Virus record (IMG/VR): IMGVR_UViG_3300009079_000117
Span: 1 to 25,272 of that record
DNA from: a virus
Strand: one strand, 5' to 3'
DNA: 25,272 bases
Below the pieces are notes generated by a model. It had not been told where the DNA came from. It searched no databases and saw only the letters and a list, made by a program, of their open reading frames with translations. Every line of letters begins with the position of its first letter. The stretch's first letter is position 1. This document shows, piece after piece, positions 1,969-23,232 of this stretch. The position numbers and the translations under genes were made by a program.

Positions 1969-2214
1969 AGAAAAAGACGCCTAAGCGCCTCTAGGATGTA
2001 TAAGCAAAATAGGTAGGATTCGGTTATACCTACAACCCCATAACACAGATACCATCTGAAATAAGGGAGCCAAGTTCCGCTCGGTAGAGCAATGTGACTC
2101 AGCGTATTTCTACTACCAAGCCTGGGTACCACCCCTAACTTGCCAAGTTCGACCCTCTGGTAAAGGCCTCTTCCTTGCACTATAAACAAAAGCTAATTAT
2201 TCTTTTGTTGCTAT
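1969..2214 (-). ncRNA. candidate structured noncoding RNA (about 245 nt) with its own promoter and terminator
   Basis: This stretch is bounded by a good sigma70-type promoter (2221-2249) and an intrinsic terminator (1971-1992), both on the minus strand, so it should give one discrete transcript. It begins with an 8-bp hairpin (arms 2202-2209 and 2185-2192). Further local hairpins include AACTT/AAGTT, GCTC-TACC-GAGC, CAGAT-GGT-ATCTG and GTAGG/CCTAC. The nine bases GAACTTGGC occur twice (2150-2142 and 2077-2069). The only long minus frame (74 codons) has no ribosome-binding site and reads through the terminator, so I do not call it a gene. I see no tRNA, tmRNA, 6S or RNase P signature. The function is unknown. 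Confidence 0.6.
1971..1992 (-). terminator. intrinsic terminator of the 1969-2214 RNA
   Basis: On the minus strand AGAGGCGC pairs with GCGTCTTT around a TTAG loop (8 pairs, two of them G-U), and the stem runs into a T5 tract. No T tract follows on the plus strand, so it acts on minus-strand transcripts. Confidence 0.7.
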
Positions 2215-12176: not shown

Positions 12177-13007
12177 ATGACAAACCCATTAATTCAAGCA
12201 TATAAAAAGCCAGCACTATATGTTACATTACCAAGTGGAGGGAAGTACTACAAAAACCCACCAAAACTTAGTATTGATAACGAGCTAGCCGTATATGCTA
12301 TGACAGCAAGGGATGAACTTATTACTAAAACACCAGATGCGTTGTTTAACGGAGAAGCCACGATAAGTTTAATTAGAAGTTGTTGCCCAGACATTGAAGA
12401 TCCAGAAACAATGCCTGTGGGTGATTTACTTGTAATTTTAATAGGCATTAGACATGCTAGCTATGGTAAAGAAATCGACATTGATGTAAAATGTCCTAAA
12501 TGTGAGTTTGATAATCAATTACAACTTGATGCAAACATAATGCTATCAAAAGCAGTAACAGAAATTGCAGATACCAGCATTACACTACCAACTGGATTTA
12601 AACTTATATGTAATCCATACACATTAAGAGACAGGACAATGCTTCAAGTTCAGCAAATAAAACAGGCTAAAATGATTCAAGGTTTATCAGATGCATCACT
12701 TGATGATCAAAGTAGAACAGATTTATTTGGCAAAACATTTGTTGAAATTGCAGAGCTTACAGTTAACTTAATTACTAATTGTATTGTAAGTGTACAGGGC
12801 GAAGGCACTGATGTTATAGCTGACAAAGATACAATTAAAGAATGGCTACAGACTATAACCAAAAAAGATTATGACTTAATCAAAGGCAAAGTAGAAGAAC
12901 TAAGTGAAAATGGATTAGAAACTGAGTTTAATGCTAGTTGTCAAGATTGTGGTCATACTTGGAAAACTGGTGTAGACTTAGATATTGCAAATTTTTTCGA
13001 GGGCTGA
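12177..13007 (+). CDS. gp26: baseplate hub assembly protein (gp26-like)
   Basis: This 276-aa protein starts at ATG 12177 (MTNPLIQAYKKP), with TTGGAGA ten bases upstream; the longer in-frame start at 12135 falls in the promoter leader and is rejected. Family-type segments are LPSGGKYY near the N-terminus and RDELITKTPDALFNGEA (about 45-61). Two Cys pairs, C106-P-K-C109 and C255-Q-D-C258-G-H, form a probable zinc ribbon. T4 gp26 (208 aa) is needed for assembly of the baseplate hub. The last codons carry a slippery sequence followed by a hairpin, and the -1 frame stays open for 78 further codons, so a longer gp26 fusion is probably also made. It is transcribed from a late promoter and is divergent from the two tape-measure candidates. 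Confidence 0.85.
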   Translation: MTNPLIQAYKKPALYVTLPSGGKYYKNPPKLSIDNELAVYAMTARDELITKTPDALFNGEATISLIRSCCPDIEDPETMPVGDLLVILIGIRHASYGKEIDIDVKCPKCEFDNQLQLDANIMLSKAVTEIADTSITLPTGFKLICNPYTLRDRTMLQVQQIKQAKMIQGLSDASLDDQSRTDLFGKTFVEIAELTVNLITNCIVSVQGEGTDVIADKDTIKEWLQTITKKDYDLIKGKVEELSENGLETEFNASCQDCGHTWKTGVDLDIANFFEG

Positions 13008-13028
13008 TAGCTTCTCGTCAGCCCGAAG
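12989..13028 (+). promoter_or_regulatory. programmed -1 ribosomal frameshift site at the end of gp26
   Basis: The canonical heptamer A-AAT-TTT (12989-12995), in register with the gp26 codons AAT and TTT, overlaps a second one, T-TTT-TTC (12992-12998). After a 5-base spacer comes a perfect 7-bp stem, GGGCTGA (13001-13007) with TCAGCCC (13018-13024), around a 10-base loop. The gp26 stop TGA lies in the 5' arm. Loop bases CTTC (13011-13014) can pair with GAAG (13025-13028), allowing a pseudoknot. The -1 frame is open across the site. Confidence 0.75.
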
Positions 13029-13231
13029 AAATATTGAATATTGTTGAAAGATATAATAAGGAATTAAAAGAAACAGAAGGTAGCTACTTAGATGTAGTTA
13101 TTCGAAGTGATGGTGCAGTAAGTTATCAAGACATTATGACAATGCCAATTGATAGTATTAGATTAATGGTTGAGAGAATGAATCTCCGAGTTGAAGAAAT
13201 TAATAAGTCAAGAAAGGGCGGTCGTCAATGA
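12995..13231 (+). CDS. -1 frame extension of gp26 (78 codons), probable gp26 fusion / gp51-like chaperone part
   Basis: The open frame runs -1 relative to gp26. Read from the slip site it gives FRGLIASRQPEEILNIVERY and onward, ending KSRKGGRQ, so the fusion would be about 351 aa (273 gp26 residues plus 78). There is no ATG near its beginning. The first possible independent start is TTG in ATA-TTG-AAT (13034-13036), with only a weak GAAGAA before it. The segment IMTMPIDSIRLMVERMN looks like a genuine conserved short helix and the frame is not a shadow, because gp26 has already ended. In T4, gp51 acts with gp26 in hub assembly, and G/GT-type tail chaperones in other phages are made by -1 frameshift. 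The role of this extension is inferred by analogy. It overlaps the convergent next gene by 7 bases. Confidence 0.75.
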   Translation, partial: FRGLIASRQPEEILNIVERYNKELKETEGSYLDVVIRSDGAVSYQDIMTMPIDSIRLMVERMNLRVEEINKSRKGGRQ

Positions 13232-13839: not shown

Positions 13840-14322
13840 ACTTGACAAGATATTTTATTCACACTTAGCCTACTAAGGGCCAAGTGTAAATTGAGTTCTT
13901 GACATAGAACAGCACCCACATTACCATAGTAAACCTAGTTTAACACCTAGGAAGGGCGGTTACGCTGTACCCTTATTACATACTGCTTTTCTAACGCAGA
14001 AACATCCGGAGCCATGGTATCGACTTTTGGACTATCCTCAAGTTACGAGCGTTCGTAGAGCTTGATCATTTTGATTTGTCAAATCAGTGTATTGACATTG
14101 TTAAGCACACCAGTATCTAGTCACGTGAATTCGTAACCTCAAGGTGAGTCGACCTATGCCGACCAATCGGAGCTTTGAAGCCTTTGTTAGTTTTTATTAG
14201 CCTGATTGTGTTTTGAACGGTGCCAGTAATTGCTTGACTTTATGTCTGTGTGAGTTTTGGTTTTACACTATTAATTATCTGATGCTTTAATTATTTGCTT
14301 CAAACAAAGTTAAAACGCTACT
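13840..14322 (-). ncRNA. candidate long structured noncoding RNA downstream of a strong early promoter
   Basis: There is no protein gene between 13669 and 14353; the longest frames are about 30 codons and lack ribosome-binding sites. A strong minus-strand promoter (14329-14357) points into it. Pairings seen on the minus strand include a leader stem (AACAAAAG with CTTTGTT, one bulge), TGATTT-GAC-AAATCA, TACGA-ACGC-TCGTA, AGGTTACG (14139-14132) with CGTAACTT (14047-14040), and ACACTTGGCC with GGCTAAGTGT at the 3' side. GACTA (14122-14118) can pair with TAGTC (14034-14030) across the third, giving a pseudoknot. The flanking bases resemble group I intron R and S elements, but no split gene is seen. 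The 3' end is uncertain. Confidence 0.45.
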
Positions 14323-14328
14323 TTTGTT

Positions 14329-14357
14329 ATAATAACAAAAAAGTTGTGCGTTGTCAA
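14329..14357 (-). promoter_or_regulatory. strong sigma70-type promoter of the 13840-14322 RNA
   Basis: On the minus strand a consensus TTGACA (14357-14352) is followed by a 17-base spacer and TATTAT (14334-14329), with an A7 tract and GG upstream. The -35 box overlaps the TGA stop codon of the GIY-YIG-like gene. The predicted start is near 14322. Confidence 0.75.
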
Positions 14358-14803
14358 CCTTTTTTTAAGTGTTCTGTAAGAATTTTAGAACTACCTATTC
14401 TTACATTAATTATTCCGTTATAGTATTCATCGGTTTCTAATACTCTACGGTCAAATTGTTCTTTTGCTTCCATATAACTTAGTACGCCTCTACTAGGACA
14501 ATAATGTAATATTTCTCTAGTAAAGTTTTCAGAACCAATTGTTAATACATCTGCATTTAAATGATCTGATGAGCCCCAATAGTCTCTCCAGTCACTTTCT
14601 TTCGTGCCACGCCTTTTGTTTTTCTTACCTTTAAGAGGCGGCTTTGTTGTTTTAAATCTTGCTAGTTTCTTACCAACATACTTGCGATTGTTAGTAAGGT
14701 TTGTAATTAAATAAACAAATCCTTCACAGTCAGCAGGAAGTTCGTCAACTACAACACTATTGTAAGTCCACGGACATTTGTCGCTACTCTTTGATCCACT
14801 CAT
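14354..14803 (-). CDS. GIY-YIG-like endonuclease domain protein (149 aa)
   Basis: This 149-aa protein has a degenerate GIY-YIG core: GFVYLITN (residues 28-35) in place of GIY, then RKYVGKK (40-46) in place of YIG. A basic loop (KGKKNKRRGTK), DYWGSSDHLNADV, ENFTREILHYC, and MEAKEQF with a candidate catalytic Glu (112 or 115) follow. Similar free-standing proteins occur in T4-like phages and may be homing or Seg-type endonucleases, or domesticated derivatives. It is the last gene of the gp55-gp47-gp46 unit, and its start overlaps the preceding 51-aa gene. Its stop codon lies in the -35 box of the next promoter. Nuclease activity is inferred; the first GIY residues are diverged. Confidence 0.75.
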   Translation of the reverse strand: MSGSKSSDKCPWTYNSVVVDELPADCEGFVYLITNLTNNRKYVGKKLARFKTTKPPLKGKKNKRRGTKESDWRDYWGSSDHLNADVLTIGSENFTREILHYCPSRGVLSYMEAKEQFDRRVLETDEYYNGIINVRIGSSKILTEHLKKG

Positions 14804-20859: not shown

Positions 20860-23232
20860 ATGTCAACATTGTCGGATAAAAACAACAATCCACTAAACAT
20901 TAAAACAAGCAGTGACAACTGGCAAGGAGCCGATGGCAGTAATGCTGGTTTTGTTAAGTTTAATAATCCAGAGTACGGTGTGCGAGCTGCCACTAAGAAT
21001 TTATATACAAGTCAAGAAAAATATGGAAACAATTCAGTAAGCGACATTGTAACAAGATGGGCACCACCAAGTGATAATAATCCAACTGAAATCTACATAC
21101 AAAAAGTAGCAGATGATTTGGGAGTAGGACCAAATGATGACTTAGGATCTTTAAGAGACAATCCAGAAGTCACAAAAAATCTAATAAAGTCAATGGCAGA
21201 AATGGAAGGGGCTACTGTAGGTGAAGATGGAAAATATACAGATAGCGTAATCACAAATGGTGTAGCTATGGCAAATGGTAAGTCTGCATCAGAAGTTGAT
21301 TTTGTAGCACAAGACACAGATTTTGCTGGAGAAGGATTTGTAAACGCAGTAGACGAAGAACAAGGATTAGTTGCTACACCCGAAGTAAAAAAAGAAGCAG
21401 CGCCGGCTTATAGTAATTTAGAAAATATAGGACAATCAAACTGGATGAGTACTGTTGACAGTCCTGCATATCGTTGGACATTATATGTAGTTAACGATAG
21501 AGTGTGGGAAGATGTAACTAAATTGTACGGAAGTGATTCAGCAGTTACAAATAAAAATGAAGCTATGATAATTGCAAAAACAGGTGTAACTACAGAATTT
21601 TCTTTAGATAACTTTGTAACAGTAGCAACAGTTACGCCAGGACAACAACACGGTAATACAACACCGGGCATAATGCAATTTGATATTTTTGAAAATCTAG
21701 GGTTTACATTTTTAGATAGAGTATTAAAAGCAGGTATTAATATTGGAAAGCCTGGAAATCTGTATGCTCAAAATTATGTATTAAAATTAGAATTTATAGG
21801 CAGAAACCCTGCTACAGGATTTAGTGTTACTAATCCAAGTGTATTCTTTTATAGAATAAAAATAAACCAAATAAGAAGTACAACAGGTCCAGAGGGAACT
21901 AGATATAATGTTATTGGCTGGTCATTAAATAAACATTCACAATTAGAAGCACAGACATCGAGTGCATTGACAGTTAAAAATATAACTACTGCACAATCGT
22001 TTATTGACGGCTTACAAGAAAGTTGGAACAACTCAATGATTGAGGCAATGCCGGGTGGCAAAGATGCATATGCATCAGGTATGGTAATTCCGTATAAACA
22101 AGTAAAGATAAAGTTTGGTCCAAGTACTACTATTAAAAATGACCCTATACCGGGTATTAATAATTTTGTATTGCCTATTGCAGAAATGGGAGCAGGAGCA
22201 AATACACAAACATCAGGTGGACAAGATGGAAACAAAGATGATCCAAAAAATAAAGATATTCCAATTGGTCCAGACACAAACATATCAAACTATATAGTAG
22301 AATACATTAATAAAAATTGTCTTACTTGGGTAGAGTATCGTAAAAAAGCACAGGAACTAGGAGTAACTTATTCTTTAAGTGTTGGGCTTGAAACTACATA
22401 TCCTATAGTAAATAGTACAATGGCATATGCTTATAACAGAGCACCGGAATTAATTACATTTACAATTAAGGTATCGAGAAATGAAACTACACCTCCTACG
22501 GATTTAAAAGTACACAATGATAATTTTGATAGTGCAGCTTACCAAAATGCAAAAATAAAAAGATTGCCTATTGAAAAAAGTTATTCGTTTCTTTACTCTG
22601 GATTAAACACAGAAGTAATAACTTATCAAATTGATATAGAAAATTTATATTTTATGATTAACCAACCAGCTGGTGGATTATATTCAGATGCAAATTTAGA
22701 AACATATGCACCAAGTGTTCCAAATAAAATCACTTCACCATATGTAGAAGATATTGAACTAGGTGATTCTAAATCATACGGTAATACTGTAAAAGGTACA
22801 GTAGCATATGTTGGAACAGATGAACAACAGGTCAGTGCTACAGTGCAAAGTGATGCAGTACAAGTAAACTTAGCCTCTAAGATGTCCAAGCGAGACATTG
22901 ATGCATATAACTTTAGTATGGAAATCAAAGGAGATCCGTATTGGATGGGTAATATGATGGTAGACATACAAGGGAATGGAACGCTTAAAGTTCCAGATTA
23001 TGATACAAGAGATGCTCTAATAACTTTTTTACAATATCAACCAAGTAATAATTTATTAACAACAGAAACAAAAGGCCCAGTTGATTATGTATCATCTGGT
23101 GTTTACAAATTAAATAAAATTGAAAGCAGATTCCAAGGAGGCAGATTTACACAGACATTGTCTGGTTATAAAGATCCTACTTCGAATATTGTTCATATAT
23201 TAAATCAAATAGAAAAACTAACTAGGAGTTAA
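20860..23232 (+). CDS. baseplate hub protein with N-terminal lysozyme-like NNP domain (790 aa)
   Basis: This is a 790-aa multidomain protein. Residues about 6-95 (NNNPLNIKTSSDNWQGADG, FVKFNNPEYGVRAATKNLY, IVTRWAPPSDNNPTEIYIQKV) resemble the N-N-P-x-N-I module of phage virion proteins with a lysozyme- or transglycosylase-like fold. A linker (about 145-195) follows. The long central and C-terminal part is beta-rich (YRWTLYVVNDRVWEDV, PGIMQFDIFENLGFTFLDRV, LKLEFIGRNPATG) and suits a hub component such as T4 gp27, since the gp5-like spike gene comes next. A gp27-type hub is inferred from order, not from a recognised signature. Fusion of a wall-degrading domain to the hub would explain why the next gene lacks one. 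Confidence 0.7.
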   Translation: MSTLSDKNNNPLNIKTSSDNWQGADGSNAGFVKFNNPEYGVRAATKNLYTSQEKYGNNSVSDIVTRWAPPSDNNPTEIYIQKVADDLGVGPNDDLGSLRDNPEVTKNLIKSMAEMEGATVGEDGKYTDSVITNGVAMANGKSASEVDFVAQDTDFAGEGFVNAVDEEQGLVATPEVKKEAAPAYSNLENIGQSNWMSTVDSPAYRWTLYVVNDRVWEDVTKLYGSDSAVTNKNEAMIIAKTGVTTEFSLDNFVTVATVTPGQQHGNTTPGIMQFDIFENLGFTFLDRVLKAGINIGKPGNLYAQNYVLKLEFIGRNPATGFSVTNPSVFFYRIKINQIRSTTGPEGTRYNVIGWSLNKHSQLEAQTSSALTVKNITTAQSFIDGLQESWNNSMIEAMPGGKDAYASGMVIPYKQVKIKFGPSTTIKNDPIPGINNFVLPIAEMGAGANTQTSGGQDGNKDDPKNKDIPIGPDTNISNYIVEYINKNCLTWVEYRKKAQELGVTYSLSVGLETTYPIVNSTMAYAYNRAPELITFTIKVSRNETTPPTDLKVHNDNFDSAAYQNAKIKRLPIEKSYSFLYSGLNTEVITYQIDIENLYFMINQPAGGLYSDANLETYAPSVPNKITSPYVEDIELGDSKSYGNTVKGTVAYVGTDEQQVSATVQSDAVQVNLASKMSKRDIDAYNFSMEIKGDPYWMGNMMVDIQGNGTLKVPDYDTRDALITFLQYQPSNNLLTTETKGPVDYVSSGVYKLNKIESRFQGGRFTQTLSGYKDPTSNIVHILNQIEKLTRS

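Follow-up and report, generated by a model that had tools for sequence, protein, structure and literature searches.

A gp26 homologue with a slippery 3' end

The window, a virus record of 25,272 bases analysed over its whole length, carries a set of T4-like genes, among them those for the portal, the head maturation protease, the late sigma factor, gp46/gp47-like (SbcC/SbcD-like) subunits, a hub/lysozyme-like protein and a tape-measure-like protein. The portal finds its nearest relatives in the jumbo T4-like phages Phosso, Atu_ph07 and PA5oct, at 50-55% identity. The features under study are the following.

12177..13007, +: gp26 homologue (TAC-N, G-like short form), 276 aa; PF12322, phrog_150, conserved start
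12989..12995, +: slippery heptamer A-AAT-TTT, in register with gp26; kept in the window's group, dispensable in other lineages
12992..12998, +: slippery heptamer T-TTT-TTC in the gp26 frame; universally conserved element
12992..13231, +: extension in the -1 frame (TAC-C, T-like domain) of 77 codons beyond the shared FF; open, conserved, with gp51 homology
13001..13024, +: stem-loop with the stop codon in its 5' arm, probable stimulator; fold and covariation
13005..13007, +: gp26 0-frame stop TGA, read at base level
20860..23232, +: probable tape measure protein; phrog_2276 tail length tape measure (1.5e-20), phrog_873 (2.3e-40)

The gp26 homologue matches PF12322 T4_baseplate with E=1.2e-21 and 78 bits (cut-off 24.5), and phrog_150 baseplate hub with 1.1e-23. 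Served by a GGAGAA ribosome site, the start at 12177 opens the conserved N-terminus MTNPLIQ and is kept in relatives; the ORF call from 12135 is 14 codons longer. At the 3' end the 0 frame reads GCA AAT TTT TTC GAG GGC TGA. The original prediction had placed two overlapping heptamers here in register with gp26, and reading at base level confirmed both (12989-12995 and 12992-12998). A slip on either would give the identical product, ...AN-F-F-R-G-L-I-A-S... to 13231, a predicted fusion of about 351 aa whose junction-spanning sequence is ...DIANFFRGLIASR.

The -1 frame, already open ahead of the heptamer, stays so through 13231. Its first 25 codons after the slip contain neither ATG nor GTG and a single TTG at codon 15, in agreement with the earlier claim that this frame has no ATG of its own, and no Met appears in the printed translation before residue 49. 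We rejected an independent start for the frame in the window, as no ATG or GTG lies near its beginning. When the window extension (P0002) was searched alone against Pfam and PHROGs, no significant family was found. Among the 21 ORFs of the window, gp26 alone combines a slippery heptamer near its 3' end with a long open -1 frame. Yet in-register X-XXY-YYZ heptamers account for 0.6% of codons in this AT-rich window, so that the motif alone proves nothing and comparison with relatives is needed.

Conservation of the slippery site across relatives

Relatives were collected by peptide patterns taken solely from the N-terminal part of gp26, which left the slippery site itself unselected. The set comprises 220 IMG/VR loci: 44 seeded with the window's marine group, 16 from enterobacterial jumbo phages, 80 from a mixed group seeded with Atu_ph07, Phosso and PA5oct, and 80 cyanophage-like. 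Because some of these are near-identical copies, they were clustered, which gave 71 clusters below 70% identity.

An in-register heptamer near the gp26 stop was present in 220/220 loci (T-TTT-TTC/T in 219, A-AAT-TTT in one), and in 220/220 the -1 frame open at the heptamer continues beyond that stop. It runs on for at least 40 codons after the stop in 216 loci, and of the four shorter ones the three listed in full end at the contig end. Such constancy shows that the slippery site is not there by chance. Aligning the gp26 loci of relatives had been proposed as one check on the prediction, which thus held for the heptamer and the -1 frame in every locus and for the stem, by covariation, in the window's group. 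The same arrangement is found in the isolates SCTP-2, BF, PA5oct, Atu_ph07, 121Q, RaK2, Vibrio 2.275, GAP32 and XaC1, and further in Phosso, RAS14, Munch, CBB, Hallingskeid, XacN1 and the cyanophages S-RIM8, P-SSM4 and Syn19.

The codon usage at the site was compared over the clusters, all 71 of which contain the TTTTTTC/T heptamer. The codon preceding TTT TT(C/T) is AAT, AGT, GAT, CAT, TCT, ACT, GCT or CGT; the residue before Phe-Phe thus varies among seven (S, N, D, H, T, A, R), while the last base of its codon is T throughout. TTC serves as the second Phe codon in 70 of the 71. The probability that T.TTT is retained by synonymous chance is about 1e-31 with the 71 clusters taken as independent, and about 1e-9.7 for the 19 clusters under 50% identity. 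These codon choices indicate that constraint on the 0-frame protein is insufficient to account for the conserved T-run.

Two distant gp26-like genes, in Streptomyces phage BRock (L034, 4490-4718) and Streptococcus phage GXN1 (L033, 4715-5060), have an open downstream frame that is +1 (or -2), not -1, and their junctions have no poly-T heptamer. The direction of the shift may differ in these lineages.

A covarying stem-loop downstream of the heptamers

Positions 13001-13007 pair with 13018-13024 in seven Watson-Crick pairs, to which U13008-G13017 is added. The perfect 7-bp stem containing the stop codon was therefore recovered as predicted, with one G·U pair in addition. The predicted 5-base spacer held in part, for A-AAT-TTT; counted from T-TTT-TTC it shortens to 2 nt. 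The stem folds with -14.2 kcal/mol (z = -3.2 against shuffles). Across the 21 distinct sequences of the window's group, six stem pairs are kept in all and 95% of cells are paired. One pair occurs as U-A, C-G or U-G, never C-A; another varies between U-A and U-G. The seventh, A-U, is missing from seven of the sequences. Changes at the main covarying positions are silent in the -1 frame (CTG/TTG Leu, CAG/CAA Gln), an indication that pairing is under selection. Fold and covariation together make the stem-loop a probable stimulator of the slip in this group; in other lineages the downstream sequence differs.

A possible 4-bp pseudoknot, CTTC 13011-13014 with GAAG 13025-13028, had also been proposed and was rejected. 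Between 2 and 5 of the 21 sequences break any given one of its four pairs, whereas the stem holds, and MFE folding favours GAAGAAA paired with the slippery run.

The extension is related to the C-terminal part of T4 gp51

T4 gp51 matches PF12322 over residues 1-201 of 249 and is thus made up of a gp26-like domain followed by about 48 residues. This C-terminal part matched the cyanophage -1 extension with 96% probability and E 2e-9 (for example, YSLTEIENMIPWER against YSLNSISKMIPAER), and the window/jumbo extension with 71% probability and E 4e-5, a moderate similarity. A further link is phrog_634 'baseplate hub assembly catalyst', which was hit by T4 gp51 147-246 (1.2e-23) as well as by the cyanophage extension (4.1e-31). 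Direct BLASTP of window gp26 against T4 gp51 was not significant, so the link rests on profiles.

Genes 26 and 51 of T4 are thus like the present locus in that both belong to PF12322 and the C-terminal part of gp51 is homologous to the -1 extension. Unlike it, they are two divergent genes, and the 3' end of gene 26 has no slippery heptamer; T4 gp26 keeps FF, as TTC TTT. The gp26 3' end has no heptamer in the six Straboviridae compared, and gp51 is a separate gene in each, divergent from gene 26 in five and co-directional in RB43.

Residues 32-141 of T4 gp26 (L018, 4303-4929, minus strand) match phrog_1140 'baseplate hub distal subunit' weakly (E 9.4e-4). T4 gp28 goes by that designation, which hints at gp28 as one more remote paralogue. 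Three cyanophage genes annotated as gp51 or 'baseplate hub assembly catalyst' (L031 4738-4923, L032 4741-4878, L030 4738-4875) are start-truncated pieces of the -1 extension. More broadly, cyanophage and jumbo phage records that list a 'gp51' or 'hypothetical protein' gene after gp26 probably show a piece of the frameshift product with a wrongly placed start.

A probable pair of short and long tail assembly chaperones from one gene

Taken together, we put at about 0.93 the probability that this phage makes a short and a long tail assembly chaperone by a programmed -1 slip in gp26. We infer the slippage, its rate, the binding to the tape measure and the chaperone function. Most ribosomes would end at TGA 13005-13007 and release the 276-aa short form, and a minority would slip one base back on A-AAT-TTT / T-TTT-TTC, aided by the downstream stem-loop. 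The slipped ribosomes would read the -1 frame to 13231, giving a long form of about 351 aa that bears one more domain at its C-terminus. If lambda G/GT is a guide, the chaperones, mostly short and only a few long, would coat the tape measure protein, the expected client being the product of 20860-23232; they would nucleate hub and tube assembly and then depart. T4 and other Straboviridae would obtain the same two forms from separate genes, 26 for the short one and 51, in which a gp26-like domain is fused in frame to the extension, for the long one.

The -1 frame could instead be a separate small gene, translated from an internal start by re-initiation or coupling after the gp26 stop. The GenBank records of BF, 121Q, Munch, P-SSM4 and Syn19 do annotate a separate downstream ORF from an internal ATG, and about half of the extensions across clusters have an ATG or GTG within their first 25 codons. 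However, conserved homology already sets in at the slippery site, ahead of the annotated starts, and members of the window's group have, ahead of the extension domain, only a TTG at codon 5 or 15, no start, or in one case an ATG at codon 25. The heptamer, moreover, is universal, and T4 gp51 has the extension fused to a gp26-like domain. We regard a separate gene as improbable.

Still less probable is an ordinary gene overlap in which the T-run is kept merely for Phe-Phe in the protein. FF is nearly invariant in gp26, and constraints on the site are indeed partly coding, with FF in frame 0 and FFR in frame -1, a point that counts against the frameshift reading, as do the moderate likeness of the window/jumbo extension to gp51, the distance of gp26 from the tape measure gene in this phage and the lack of a clear PDB match to the predicted gp26 fold. 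Against an overlap of this kind, a T always precedes TTT TTC although the residue changes, and TTT TTC itself is used in 70/71 clusters. Straboviridae with a separate gp51 have no 3' heptamer, even though T4 keeps the two phenylalanines, and among the relatives we saw none that keeps the -1 frame with neither a heptamer nor a separate gp51. Homopolymer runs are error-prone, and a one-base indel in the T-run, arising in sequencing or assembly, could split one normal gene in two. This explanation is refuted by the same split in hundreds of independently sequenced loci with differing codons around the run, and in isolate genomes as well.

Comparison with lambda G/GT and earlier work

In lambda, gpG is accompanied by gpGT, the product of a low-frequency -1 shift (gpG to gpGT about 30:1). 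The two act as chaperones of the tape measure, with the T part bringing in the tube protein, and neither is found in the virion (PMC5009743). The suggestion that gp26 and its extension form a G/GT-like pair is supported by the conserved heptamer and by the kinship of the -1 domain with the C-terminal part of T4 gp51; a short form and a rarer frameshift-extended form are common to both systems, the latter here as predicted from sequence alone. Unlike lambda G/GT, window gp26 carries CxxC pairs that probably form a zinc ribbon, and it lies apart from the tape measure gene. The lambda-type position beside that gene holds in cyanophages, where the gp26 homologue lies directly upstream of a large tape-measure/endolysin gene, but not in this phage, where about 7.9 kb separates gp26 from the tape-measure-like ORF. 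Adjacency was also met in Streptomyces phage BRock. In Bacillus phage 0305phi8-36, gp143 and gp144 are a two-gene G and GT without frameshift (PMC2147016), in line with the logic of T4 26/51.

Foldseek of the gp26 model against the PDB gave no significant match (best E 0.58), and neither a sequence profile search of the PDB nor NCBIfam returned anything significant. VIA-align superposed the model on the HK97 tail assembly chaperone 2ob9 over 101/107 residues with Z 6.3 and rmsd 5.3, an alignment that is suggestive at most, unrelated helical rows reaching a similar Z. Named matches in BFVD were mostly other T4-like hub/baseplate proteins, the remainder being uncharacterised. The PA5oct record gives an ESI-MS/MS mark to some neighbours of the gp26 homologue and none to the homologue itself, which is weakly consistent with absence of the chaperone from the virion.

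The main idea, frameshifted chaperones in T4-like phages, was already published in 2022, as far as citing papers convey it, and the present locus is a new lineage of a known system. The abstract of that paper by Vladimirov, Gautam and Davidson (Virology 566:9-15) reportedly names gp26/gp51 and describes frameshifting as conserved in several T4-like groups, with separate genes in the T4 group. Citing it, the PRFect paper states that some T4-like phages have a short TAC gene and a longer fusion gene (PMC10885494), and the Adele paper of 2025 refers to poly-T as known -1 signals in the TAC-N genes of T4-like phages (PMC12846349). As described in these citing papers, the T4-like TACs of the 2022 study resemble ours in their short and long forms and in their poly-T slippery site. 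The original prediction had known of no report of this for gp26 and was anticipated by that study, cited in both papers. None of the papers searched dealt with gp26 frameshifting in cyanophages or jumbo phages, and the marine group and its covarying stem-loop may lie beyond the coverage of the 2022 study. What the present analysis may add is a comparison of the jumbo, marine and cyanophage groups side by side, with a statistical test and a covarying stem.

T4 gp26 and gp51 are listed as hub assembly chaperones, gp51 being essential and of unknown function (PMC3004832). The several hundred loci collected here suggest that many T4-like phages beyond the Straboviridae share the G/GT ratio trick, and support the view that these long-puzzling hub assembly proteins are short and long tail assembly chaperones. 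We lean towards the view that poly-T frameshifting at the end of gp26 is ancestral in most PF12322 phages (cyanophages, jumbo T4-like phages and the marine group); the Straboviridae would have lost it through a duplication that fixed 26 as the short form and 51 as the fused long one, and the covarying stem-loop would tune the ratio in the window's group.

Other elements in the window

A non-coding stretch at 13860-14215 (extending up to about 14260), between two minus-strand ORFs, is strongly conserved in 21 relatives. Its alifold energy lies 11-13 sd below column-shuffled controls on either strand, the shuffles ignoring dinucleotides and gap structure. Compensatory types occur in 25 of about 84 predicted pairs, with many covarying stems. 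Searches against Rfam gave no credible match (best E 0.58), and neither tRNA nor tmRNA was found in the stretch, which is possibly an undescribed structured RNA of this phage group. The ORF beside it, 14354-14803 (minus strand), matches NAD synthetase/homing endonuclease families (phrog_447, 2.3e-36; phrog_7363, 3.4e-14). Elsewhere in the window, 2003-2207 (minus strand) matches the manA RNA motif, a cis-regulatory RNA family (RF01745), with 63.2 bits against a gathering threshold of 55.2.
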